DNA from: Chthonomonas sp.
GTDB lineage: Bacteria > Armatimonadota > Fimbriimonadia > Fimbriimonadales > Fimbriimonadaceae
Direction of reading: 5' to 3'
Assembly: GCA_016788425.1 (NCBI GenBank)
Contig: JAEURQ010000004.1
Coordinates: forward strand, 248,001-312,000
Length of the DNA: 64,000 bases
Shown in pieces: positions 36,548-40,057 of this stretch. Position 1 is the first letter of the stretch. Each line of letters starts with the position of its first letter. Made by a program: the position numbers and the translations under genes. The notes below the pieces were generated by a model, which did no database searches, was not told the DNA's origin, and saw nothing but the letters and a program-made list of their open reading frames with translations.

Positions 36548-37141
36548 ATGCGCGCGCGCCAAATGGGCTTGGATAGCTGGATTGTGGATGGCTTAGGTTC
36601 ACAAAGTTCCGCGTTTCTGGCGTTGGCCATGCAGGAAAAGTTTCCCGATCTGGAATTCACACCCGCGTTTTCGTCCATCGGCGTGCGAGGGACCGCCGAA
36701 TCTCCCTTGACTTTGTTCTCCGGCGTGGAACCCCTGGCCGGCGCCGGGCGGCGTCACGAGATTCCGGTCTGCTTGGAACTGGGGCTCGATCCGCACGAGC
36801 ATGCAGCGTCACTGTTCGCGGTGGATCTCACGGTGGTGGCGCTCGGATTTCAGCCCGGGTTCCCGTATCTCTCGGGGCTAGCGCCGGAGCTTTGCGGCAT
36901 ACCGCGTCGACCGGAGCCCCGGCCGCGACTCCCACGCGGGTCGGTGGCGATCGCCATGGACATGGCCGGAATCTATCCCGCAGAACTCCCCGGCGGTTGG
37001 ACCGTGCTCGGCCGCACGCCGCTCACGATTTGCGAGGCTGGCTCCGATTTCTTTCCGATTCGAGCCGGAGACACTGTGCGATTTGTCCGCATCAGCGAAG
37101 CCGAATTCGCGGCGAAGGAGGGTCAACGGCTTGCGGATTAA
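36548..37141 (+). CDS. pxpB: 5-oxoprolinase subunit B (KipI-like)
   Basis: A 197-residue protein. The core LTVVALGFQPGFPYLSGL and PRGSVAIAMDMAGIYP are hallmark KipI/PxpB motifs. With PxpA and PxpC it forms the ATP-dependent 5-oxoprolinase that hydrolyses pyroglutamate to glutamate. It is shorter than the common ~230-240 residues, missing part of the N-terminal lobe. pxpA starts within its last codons. Confidence 0.85.
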   Translation: MRARQMGLDSWIVDGLGSQSSAFLALAMQEKFPDLEFTPAFSSIGVRGTAESPLTLFSGVEPLAGAGRRHEIPVCLELGLDPHEHAASLFAVDLTVVALGFQPGFPYLSGLAPELCGIPRRPEPRPRLPRGSVAIAMDMAGIYPAELPGGWTVLGRTPLTICEAGSDFFPIRAGDTVRFVRISEAEFAAKEGQRLAD

Positions 37142-37766
37142 CGTGGATTGCGGGGAAGGGCAGCCCTGGGATGCTGAGCTTGCCGAGTTCGCCGATATGC
37201 TCAACGTATGCGGCGGCGCGCACGCTGGCTCGCGGGAGATTTCGGCGCAGACCGTGGCGCTGGCCCGGGCAAATGGCTTGGCGTGGGGCATGCATCCCGG
37301 CTATCCTGACCCTGAGCATTTCGGGCGCAGACCTCTATCCTCACTAAACGCGGCAAGGGTTGCGGAGAGTTTGCGCCAGCAAGTGGAGTTCCTCGCCGCG
37401 CTCGGTGGAGCCAGTTACCTCAAGCCGCACGGTGCGTTTTATCACGACTCGCAGGTGCCTGGCGATGCCGCCGACCTGCTCCTGGAAATCCTGGGGGGCT
37501 TGCCCTTGGTCGGGTTCCCTGGAAGCTACCACCAGCAAATAGCCGCCGCCGCGGGCGTGGAGTTTTGGGCGGAGGGCTTTGCCGAGCGCGGCTACGCCGT
37601 CGACGGTCGGCTGCTCCCCCGAAGCGAGCCGGGCGCGCTCCTCACTACCGAAAGTGAAATCAAGGCCCAGGTGGCTCAGCTTCGCGTCGATACCATCTGC
37701 GTCCACGGCGACTCGCCCGGCTGCGTGCAAGCGATTCGTTGGGTGCGCGAGGCGCTGGCGCGATGA
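37131..37766 (+). CDS. pxpA: 5-oxoprolinase subunit A (LamB/YcsF family)
   Basis: About 211 residues. The N-terminal RINVDCGEGQPWD is the metal-binding signature of the LamB/YcsF fold. I place the start at TTG 37131 because GGAGG lies 9 nt upstream; an ATG at 37083 would add 16 residues inside pxpB. It is the catalytic subunit for pyroglutamate. The stop overlaps pxpC (ATGA). Confidence 0.88.
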   Translation: MRINVDCGEGQPWDAELAEFADMLNVCGGAHAGSREISAQTVALARANGLAWGMHPGYPDPEHFGRRPLSSLNAARVAESLRQQVEFLAALGGASYLKPHGAFYHDSQVPGDAADLLLEILGGLPLVGFPGSYHQQIAAAAGVEFWAEGFAERGYAVDGRLLPRSEPGALLTTESEIKAQVAQLRVDTICVHGDSPGCVQAIRWVREALAR

Positions 37767-38545
37767 ACCTGGTGTCCGCGCTCGGGCTCACGACCTGGAT
37801 CGAACCAACCCGCCCGAATCGCCGCGCCTTTGGCGTGCCGGATGGTGGCCCGCTCGATGCCGTGAGTTTCCGCATCGCCACAGCGCTGGCCGGATCCAGA
37901 AGCAAGGTGCTCGAAGTTGTCGGCGCGCCGGTCGAGCTCGCGTTTGACGAGCCTACTTGGGTCGCGATTGCCGGAGCCGAGGGCGCGTTGACCATCGACG
38001 GCCTATCGCGCTCGCATCGCAACGGACGGCATCGCGTGCAGCGCAGCCTGGTGCTCGCCGCGCCGACCCACGGCTGGGTCACTTATGTTGCGCTCGCCAG
38101 CAAGTTGGGCGCGCTCGCGCTCGGCCATCCCGAAACGCTCGACCACTCGACCCCGTTGCGCATGACGCCGTCGCCGGACGACTTGGACCAATCCGACGTG
38201 GTCGGCCGCGAATGGACGGTCAGCATCACCTCCGATCGACGCGGCTGGCGATTGGAAGGAGACGCCGCGCAAGGCGGCCCGCAGGGCGAAAGCGAGATGG
38301 CGATTCCGGGGCTGGTGCAACTCCCGCCGGGCGGAAAGCCGATTGTGCTGGGCCCAGACGGCCCGACCGTGGGCGGCTACGCCAAGCTCGGCGTGTTGCT
38401 GCCCAGCGACCGATTTGCTCTGGCTCAGAAAAGGCCGGGAACTCCCGTCCAGTTGGCGTCCGTAACATGGGAAGAAGCCAGGCAGGCGGAGTCGACCTTC
38501 GAAGCAGCCCTCAACGAGACCACGGCCCGCCTCGCTTGGCTTTGA
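37763..38545 (+). CDS. pxpC: 5-oxoprolinase subunit C (KipA-like)
   Basis: About 260 residues, starting at the ATG in an ATGA overlap with pxpA. The TWIEPTRPNRRAFGVPDGGPLD entry and GPTVGGYAKLGVLLPSD are typical KipA/PxpC motifs. It completes the three-subunit 5-oxoprolinase. It is somewhat shorter than many homologues. Confidence 0.85.
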   Translation: MNLVSALGLTTWIEPTRPNRRAFGVPDGGPLDAVSFRIATALAGSRSKVLEVVGAPVELAFDEPTWVAIAGAEGALTIDGLSRSHRNGRHRVQRSLVLAAPTHGWVTYVALASKLGALALGHPETLDHSTPLRMTPSPDDLDQSDVVGREWTVSITSDRRGWRLEGDAAQGGPQGESEMAIPGLVQLPPGGKPIVLGPDGPTVGGYAKLGVLLPSDRFALAQKRPGTPVQLASVTWEEARQAESTFEAALNETTARLAWL

Positions 38546-38547
38546 TG

Positions 38548-38553
38548 TAGAAT
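38548..38553 (+). promoter_or_regulatory. -10 box ahead of the HisB-like gene (leaderless type)
   Basis: TAGAAT ends 6 nt before the ATG at 38560, just after the pxpC stop. It suggests the HisB-like gene is also transcribed on its own. Confidence 0.45.
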
Positions 38554-38559
38554 CCCATC

Positions 38560-39156
38560 ATGAGTAAGGGTGCGCCGAGCGTTCGCTACGCCGAAATTGA
38601 ACGGGAATCTCCCGGCATGCGCTCCAGCGTCGTGCTCGACTTTGATGGCGGAACCCATCGCGACGTCTCGACCGGCAGCCCGATCCTCGATTTTTGGCTT
38701 CGCCAATTCGCCTACTACGGCCAGTTCAATCTGGGTCTGCAAGTCACCTCCGATCGGCCGATGCATTGCCACCAACTCTGCGTGGAAGTCGGGCTCGCCC
38801 TCGGCCACGCGATTCGCGAATGCCTAGAAGACTCGCGCGACATCCGGCGCATGGCGAGCACCCACGCGGTGGTCGAAGATGCCTTGATGCTCGTCGCGAT
38901 TGACCTCGGAGGTCGGAGCCACTTCTCGTGGGATGTGAATCCAGGCCGGGAGACGATCGCCGAAATCTCCAGCCAAAGCGCGCGCGAGCTTTTCGCCGCC
39001 CTTTGCGACGAGGGTCGGATGGCGCTGCACGTGCGCCAAGAATCGGGCGTCAACGCCAACAATGTGCTGGAATCCGTGTTCCGCGGCCTTGGCCGGAGCC
39101 TGCACGTGGCCGCGGAACTTGTGGATCGGTCGGGCGGAAACGGCTCGCGCCGTTAG
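38560..39156 (+). CDS. HisB-like (imidazoleglycerol-phosphate dehydratase fold) protein lacking most metal ligands
   Basis: A 198-residue protein that aligns end to end with HisB: ILDFWLRQF at 42-50 for ILDHML, VEVGLALGHAI at 75-85 for TVEDTGIALG, VEDALMLVAIDLGGR at 105-119, and GVNANNVLESVF at 163-174 for NAHHIIEALF. But the metal-binding residues are replaced: the HisB ILDHML His is Phe46, the first HH pair is HQ (71-72), its Glu is Val75, and the second HH pair is NN (167-168). Dehydratase activity in histidine synthesis is therefore unlikely. It may be a pseudoenzyme with another role. It follows pxpC by 14 nt. Confidence 0.75.
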   Translation: MSKGAPSVRYAEIERESPGMRSSVVLDFDGGTHRDVSTGSPILDFWLRQFAYYGQFNLGLQVTSDRPMHCHQLCVEVGLALGHAIRECLEDSRDIRRMASTHAVVEDALMLVAIDLGGRSHFSWDVNPGRETIAEISSQSARELFAALCDEGRMALHVRQESGVNANNVLESVFRGLGRSLHVAAELVDRSGGNGSRR

Positions 39157-39632
39157 CCCAAGTGCGAGTCGAGAAGCCACATCTGCTCCTCAAGGGCGCG
39201 GCAATGGGCCGTCAACAGGTCGGCGGTAATCGGCTCGTCTTCAACCGCCGAAATCCCCGCGCGCATGGTTTTGCTCGTCGCCTGCAGCGATTCGCAAAGA
39301 TTCGCAATGGCATCGGCCGCGCTGAGTTCGCCGGTCGGGAACTTGGGTAGCGTGCTTTCTTTCGAGACCACGCTCGAGCGGGCATCCACGGTGCCACCGA
39401 GTTGCCGAATCCGTTCGGCGACCTGGTCAATGGCGGCGTGAGCGACGGCCAACGTGGCGTCGAGTTGCTTGTGAACGGCGATAAAGTTGGCATCGCGCAG
39501 GTTCCAGTGAGCATGCCGCGTTTGGTTCGCGAGTTCCATAAGATCAAGTAAAGTCGAACTCAGAGCCTCATTCGCGACCTTGGCGATTTTGGCGTCGACG
39601 GGGAGGTGGCGGGAGCGAGTTGTGGAAACCAT
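39153..39632 (-). CDS. dps: Dps-family ferritin-like protein
   Basis: About 159 residues. The ferroxidase residues of the Dps fold lie in HAHWNLRDANFIAVHKQLD and AAIDQVAERIRQLGGT (His, His, Asp, Glu). It stores iron and protects DNA from peroxide. The start is the ATG at 39632, inside an inverted repeat; the frame upstream enters the divergent intergenic region. It is convergent with the HisB-like gene (4-base overlap). Confidence 0.85.
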   Translation of the reverse strand: MVSTTRSRHLPVDAKIAKVANEALSSTLLDLMELANQTRHAHWNLRDANFIAVHKQLDATLAVAHAAIDQVAERIRQLGGTVDARSSVVSKESTLPKFPTGELSAADAIANLCESLQATSKTMRAGISAVEDEPITADLLTAHCRALEEQMWLLDSHLG

Positions 39633-39646
39633 ACTAGTTGTTTCCA
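39623..39646. promoter_or_regulatory. Inverted repeat over the dps start codon
   Basis: TGGAAAC (39623-39629) and GTTTCCA (39640-39646) form a perfect 7-bp inverted repeat with a 10-nt spacer that contains the dps ATG. It is a possible operator for iron- or stress-responsive control. Confidence 0.4.
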
Positions 39647-39715
39647 ACGCCGAGGCGGGCGCAACCGTCGCAAAAATTGGGCGGGCCAAAGTCCCAGATT
39701 CCGGGTTCTGGACCG

Positions 39716-39721
39716 TATAAT
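39716..39721 (+). promoter_or_regulatory. -10 box of the small membrane protein promoter (leaderless type)
   Basis: TATAAT ends 6 nt before the GTG at 39728. No Shine-Dalgarno site. Confidence 0.5.
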
Positions 39722-39727
39722 GTGGTC

Positions 39728-40057
39728 GTGCCGTTCGATCCTGAATTTATCATTCCTCTTGCCGCCGTCGTCATGATTTTCGGGATTCCGATCGTCGCGA
39801 TCTTGACCGGGCACCAGCGCAAAATGGCGGAGATAATGCGCGGCAACCAAACGGTGGACAACTCCGCTCACCTGGCCCGGGAGTTTCAAATGCTCCGCGA
39901 GGAGGTGCGCACCTTAAGGGATCAGGTTAATCGTCAGGCGCTCGCGCTCGACGATCGCGGCGTGCAGCCGCTCACGCCGGATTACGACGCAACTTCGCTG
40001 GGTAACGCCTCAGCGCAGCCGCGGCAAATGCCGCCGGACCTTCCGCAGAACCGCTAG
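39728..40057 (+). CDS. Small membrane protein with coiled-coil tail
   Basis: About 109 residues. An N-terminal transmembrane segment (FIIPLAAVVMIFGIPIVAIL) is followed by a likely coiled coil (HLAREFQMLREEVRTLRDQV) and a Pro/Gln-rich tail. The GTG at 39728 is chosen because TATAAT lies 6 nt upstream; earlier in-frame codons would leave no leader. No family is recognised. Confidence 0.6.
   Translation: MPFDPEFIIPLAAVVMIFGIPIVAILTGHQRKMAEIMRGNQTVDNSAHLAREFQMLREEVRTLRDQVNRQALALDDRGVQPLTPDYDATSLGNASAQPRQMPPDLPQNR

Follow-up and report, generated by a model that had tools for sequence, protein, structure and literature searches.

HisB, or imidazoleglycerol-phosphate (IGP) dehydratase (IGPD), is usually regarded as an enzyme with one function. 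The locus described here raises the question of what such a protein might be kept for once the residues of its active site have been replaced. It lies within a stretch of 64,000 nucleotides (the window) from Chthonomonas sp., a member of the Fimbriimonadales, which is an order of soil and water bacteria within the Armatimonadota. The genome concerned (G000) amounts to 2.67 Mb, is 99.9 % complete and is contained in four contigs. The features of the locus are collected in Table 1.

Table 1. Features around the HisB-like gene, in positions of the window
Feature	Coordinates	Strand	Remarks
pxpB, pxpA and pxpC	36548..38545	+	pxpB 36548-37141, pxpA 37083-37766, pxpC 37739-38545; assigned by Pfam; upstream neighbours of the HisB-like gene
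-10-like box TAGAAT	38548..38553	+	12 nt upstream of the HisB-like ATG
Putative HisB/IGPD-derived pseudoenzyme	38560..39156	+	198 aa; losses F45, Q72, V75, N167, N168, G19, E106, Y53 and GSR tail; retained H71, H157, E171
Dps/ferritin-like gene	39153..39689	-	convergent; separates the HisB-like gene from c2
c2, small single-TM coiled-coil protein	39638..40057	+	motif HQRKMAE; next gene downstream of native hisB in the ancestral arrangement; real start probably within the ORF given

The HisB-like open reading frame starts with ATG (protein N-terminus MSKGAPSVRYAEIERES), and its similarity to IGPD, which the initial annotation had described as running from end to end, is borne out by a Pfam search in which PF00475 covers the whole protein (model positions 1-144 of 144, 115 bits, E 4e-33), a full-length match at which chance similarity to HisB was rejected. 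In contrast, the protein falls below the cut-off of every NCBIfam HisB equivalog model that it matched (best 121.7 versus 328). With the Mn ligand list and the Arabidopsis (At) numbering of PMC4509728, where in the first half of the protein the window number equals the At number minus 2, the ligand string H H H E H H H E of an active IGPD reads F H Q V H N N E in the window protein. Five of the eight Mn ligands are gone (H47 to F45, H74 to Q72, E77 to V75, and H169 and H170 to N167 and N168), and the two-Mn-site arrangement of an active IGPD is lost with them. Those still present are H71 (At H73), H157 (At H145) and E171 (At E173), so Mn1 retains one of four ligands, counting His74, which we infer to be the fourth, and Mn2 retains two of four. 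The annotation had read the first histidine pair as HQ (H71-Q72), its glutamate as valine and the second pair as NN, all of which stands; it had also placed a phenylalanine at a histidine position, correctly except that the residue is Phe45 rather than Phe46, and had taken the Mn sites to be lost altogether, which goes too far in view of the three remaining ligands.

Further losses had escaped that first description. The catalytic residues E21 and D108, whose roles are described in PMC4509728, are replaced by G19 and E106, and neither matches an active IGPD. At the phosphate site the window protein carries Y53 (H55), R97 (R99), R119 (R121), R175 (K177), G195 (S199) and R197 (K201), so that only two arginines, R97 and R119, are kept out of the complement of an active enzyme, and the phosphate-binding C-loop has changed from S-T-K to G-S-R. 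On these residues the window protein is almost certainly catalytically dead as an IGP dehydratase. Its fold is another matter. The AlphaFold2 model, built on an alignment of 63 relatives, has a pLDDT of 91.6 and a pTM of 0.88, and Foldseek superposes it on the solved plant IGPDs 8qax, 2f1d and 4mu3 with TM scores of 0.89-0.96 and rmsd of 1.2-1.6, so that Pfam, model and Foldseek together give an IGPD fold over the full length. The protein thus resembles HisB/IGPD (PF00475, EC 4.2.1.19) in its complete fold, in the order of its secondary structure, in its descent from native Fimbriimonadales HisB and in the shared residues R9, E12, D29, D44, H157, N165 and E171, and differs in lacking five of eight Mn ligands, the catalytic Glu, the equivalents of Asp108 and His55, and the Ser and Lys of the C-loop. 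A homologous fold from which essential catalytic residues have been lost is one mark of a pseudoenzyme, and the window protein, as judged from its sequence and predicted structure, bears it.

The initial annotation had advised a search of the genome for the true hisB, and one is there. The single other PF00475 gene of G000 (C4:401459, 189 bits) encodes a HisB with 8/8 Mn ligands and an STK tail, and the Pfam assignments around it describe a hisG-D-B-H-F-A operon, with HisG and HisD before it and, after it, a glutamine amidotransferase and then two His_biosynth proteins. The operon HisB has only about 27 % identity to the window protein, whose gene falls within the native family; a recent duplication of the operon hisB is therefore rejected. 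Membership of the native family is seen in a shared N-terminus, in 35-45 % identity with the majority of intact native HisBs and in the presence of c2 downstream. By this kinship the window gene is, as it appears, the native Fimbriimonadales HisB after its IGPD activity had lapsed. The tree of HisB proteins agrees in placing the G000 operon HisB apart from the native HisBs, in a group with the second HisB of G012 and that of G069 (100/99), and it contains a separate, fully supported group made up of the intact copies of G007, G080, G032, G034 and G026. Genomes with a dead native HisB hold compact his operons of two unrelated kinds, one at L032 (G000), L043 (G012) and L067 (G069) and the other at L042, L070, L061 and L062 (G007, G080, G032 and G034). 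The occurrence of two operon kinds beside a dead native HisB suggests that histidine synthesis was lost and later regained, and the simplest reading would be that the compact operons were acquired horizontally, at least twice.

Whether the losses are conserved among orthologues was the other check proposed. Across an order represented by 113 genomes, 78 HisB proteins were read individually, and the rest of the genomes were scored with Pfam alone. Eighteen native copies lack one or more Mn ligands, namely those of G000, G003, G007, G012, G013, G014, G016, G020, G021, G028, G032, G034, G038, G066, G068, G069, G071 and G080. The idea that the window gene merely reflects a sequencing or assembly error is refuted by comparable, independent losses in another 17 genomes, and the open frame and the near-complete, four-contig assembly add to the case against it; its likelihood is negligible. 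In all 18 genomes either HisD and HisG are absent (the HisD of G038 being a fragment of 44 positions only) or a second, intact HisB is present. Ligand loss thus affects 18 of the 21 native copies in genomes that lack HisD/HisG or have a second HisB, and 0 of the 48 that are the sole HisB of a genome with HisD/HisG (Fisher p 7.7e-14, a value outweighed by the rpoB tree, because the copies are non-independent draws). Of 17 degenerate proteins, 15 no longer have the catalytic E21. Three pathway-less genomes (G005, G009 and G041) keep the eight ligands and have altered phosphate or C-loop residues, the absence of the pathway being less sure in G041, a draft that is 73 % complete. Genomes without HisG and a full HisD may go either way, as 12 of them (at least 91 % complete) still carry a HisB-like gene and six (G010, G018, G084, G030, G082 and G083; at least 97 % complete) have no HisB. 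In the congener G001, an 87 % complete draft, the native HisB (L046:2909-3442) has eight Mn ligands and a frame that ends at residue 178, without a C-loop and 6 nt before c2; this early end may reflect an error of assembly, and no other hisB was found in the draft genome or on its hisI-hisG-hisD-hisF contig.

The number of independent losses was assessed on an rpoB tree, which is a single-gene tree with several weak nodes and in which G036 is partial. The window genome is there the sister of G001 (100), whose HisB has 8/8 ligands; G014 goes with G091 (98) and G021 plus G071 with G074 (89), dead and intact copies being mixed in each group, and the degenerates of the f5 clade are sister to the intact G036 (96). 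G066, G080, G007, G069, G068 and G016 form one clade (99; g16/g7/g10/g42), and G012, G003 and G020 are placed elsewhere. These splits between dead and intact copies, together with the separate clades, imply at least six independent losses. The HisB tree groups the window copy with those of G012 and the g16 clade; since rpoB puts G000 with G001 (100), this grouping is treated as long-branch attraction and was rejected as evidence of kinship.

A gene that has lost its enzymatic function may simply be decaying, and a redundant native hisB might be drifting with its frame open by chance. The window copy is indeed among the longest branches (1.48) and has one of the two lowest ligand counts (3/8), and six pathway-less genomes have lost the gene. 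However, in the two clades in which all copies are degenerate the substitutions are not those of a drifting gene. NG86 dN/dS is 0.19-0.30 in the g16 trio and 0.11 and 0.22 in the computable f5 pairs, and codon likelihood rejects omega=1 for g16 (2dlnL 216), for f5 (403) and for the trio of the window copy, G001 and the G012 b copy (186), which mixes live and dead branches; the absolute omega values of the codon model (0.017-0.036) were set aside, dS being saturated. Purifying selection after loss is thus found in the g16 and f5 clades. The window copy differs from that of G002 by 110 amino-acid substitutions and zero internal indels, most other degenerates likewise lack indels, and the frames are open in all independent degenerate lineages. 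A neutral simulation to about 50 % identity, in which indels are ignored, yields a mean of 2.8 stops and leaves 5-7 % of runs stop-free, so that the neutral survival of so many independent open frames is improbable. GC by codon position in the window gene is still gene-like (0.69/0.46/0.75). With dS saturated on the window branch, the case for selection there rests on the intact frame, the lack of indels and the mixed trio; by these signs the window gene is very probably under purifying selection, and simple decay is correspondingly improbable. What has changed is also unevenly distributed. Among columns conserved in intact copies, degenerates retain active-site columns at 0.53 and other columns at 0.74 (p 0.002), and erosion is concentrated in the active site. 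The columns of the N-terminal sheet are retained at 0.83, a suggestive but non-significant difference from those of the C-terminal sheet (p 0.09).

With a true hisB elsewhere in the genome, losses that recur in orthologues and persisting selection on the frame, the pseudoenzyme reading put forward in the initial annotation is upheld. We favour, at a probability of roughly 0.65, a recurrent HisB-derived pseudoenzyme that would be selected for a metal-independent role other than IGP dehydration, probably in binding or scaffolding. That role is likely to be independent of histidine synthesis. A dead subunit might instead co-assemble with the operon HisB in a mixed 24-mer, by analogy with dead paralogues that regulate live enzymes, and seven genomes do combine a dead native HisB with an intact second one. 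However, at least nine pathway-less genomes hold a degenerate copy and no active HisB for it to partner, so dead HisB is not only a partner of live HisB; given also the low identity of the two G000 copies, co-assembly is improbable as the explanation. A further alternative is a repurposed enzyme, in which the pocket would bind another metal or substrate and carry out new chemistry. H71, H157 and E171 remain in the window protein, and H157 is invariant in all degenerates. A shared active site should nevertheless give a shared residue pattern, and the divergence of the lost positions counts against one: position 45 is occupied by F, A, S, G, D, Q, E, R, Y or L, and position 72 by Q, D, F, S, L or R. 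As the lost positions converge on no common residues, a single new shared enzyme is improbable, and new chemistry in general is an unlikely account of the gene.

A binding or scaffold role for the retained fold and outer face would then be the best remaining choice, although its probability as against new catalysis is put at about even. In known IGPDs the Mn ligands are contributed by two chains (PMC4509728, PMC10978614), Mn removal yields trimers in some species, and in the plant enzyme the N-terminal sheet forms the outer face of the 24-mer (PMC10978614). In the most likely mechanism, native HisB would have a second role needing neither Mn nor IGP; once the catalytic role lapses, the active site would erode while fold and surface are kept, the N-terminal sheet best of all; and a metal-free assembly, perhaps a trimer, would work as a binding or scaffold protein. 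The trimer is a reasonable guess because of the species in which Mn removal has that effect (PMC10978614). We infer both the second role and its presence already in active HisB, and the six near-complete pathway-less genomes without the gene indicate that such a role is dispensable. No conserved partner gene that would identify it was found. In a broader form, for and against which we see the odds as equal, the HisB of the Fimbriimonadales would moonlight, with a metal-independent function that outlasts histidine biosynthesis; several lineages would have lost the native pathway but kept HisB for that function, and some of them would later have regained histidine synthesis through a compact his operon, so that the old HisB was left with no enzymatic task and served the second function alone.

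The position of the HisB-like gene after pxpBAC, as first annotated, is confirmed by Pfam for all three genes, the pxpC stop being 14 bp from the HisB-like start. pxpBAC was found next to no other hisB locus examined, and a functional link with it was rejected, the neighbourhood being local to the window. The HisB-like and Dps genes run towards each other and share 4 bp where their stop codons meet (39153-39156). The -10 box of its own that had been claimed for the gene is there, as a -10-like hexamer 5' of the ATG. Such a hexamer precedes the start by 11-24 nt in 30 of 42 intact native genes (5.8 expected from shuffling), in four of four mild ones (0.7 expected) and in 11 of 17 degenerate ones (2.3 expected), the p values being optimistic because the pattern was picked after inspecting the sequences; it precedes 0 of 8 operon hisB copies. 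The native locus reads hisB-hisH-hisA-c2-rpoB in many genomes, which is the ancestral neighbourhood of hisB; at the degenerate f1 loci hisB stays while hisH and hisA are gone, as they are from the window locus. The c2 gene, whose product had no match in a Pfam search, is conserved throughout the Fimbriimonadales at a place between the his cluster and rpoB, with tandem copies in some loci. Retention of hisB as a translational leader for c2 was rejected as a general cause, since in the window the Dps gene stands between the two, and the surroundings of the degenerate hisB in G014 and in G080 yielded no c2.

Among comparable systems are other pseudoenzymes descended from enzymes of amino-acid biosynthesis. 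HisZ is a dead paralogue of HisRS that regulates HisG. The partner on which it acts is live and belongs to the same pathway, whereas degenerate HisB is found mostly in genomes without such a pathway, and, unlike in HisZ, the decay of HisB has happened many times independently. What HisZ, degenerate HisB and the reported pseudoenzyme of plant indole synthesis (PMC12727527) have in common is a dead homologue kept by selection. The open-licence literature yielded no relevant report on a HisB pseudoenzyme, a moonlighting IGPD or histidine biosynthesis in Armatimonadota, and no full-length, low-scoring HisB was found outside the Fimbriimonadales in the sample of the phylum. As far as checked, this is a recurrent pseudoenzyme from a family without reported pseudoenzymes. 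At least six independent cases in which catalytic residues were lost and the gene was kept suggest a hidden function for the IGPD fold, and the copies, which grade from intact through mild to dead, amount to a natural mutational series by which that function can be separated from catalysis. The presence of PF00475 also does not equate with histidine prototrophy, as at least 11 genomes here would be mis-scored as having an active HisB in a working pathway.

A similar fate may have befallen a second gene of the native locus. Directly downstream of hisB in the f5 clade lie truncated, degenerate HisA-like ORFs (L059, L038, L040, L082 and L039, in G038, G032, G028, G041 and G034, respectively), and L139 (G040) also has one. 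Like the window HisB-like gene they are degenerate native his genes at the same locus; unlike it they are confined to f5 and are absent from the window. These ORFs, possibly a second retained pseudoenzyme, keep a segment like GAPQNV...H.AELVLGLGV.RVV.
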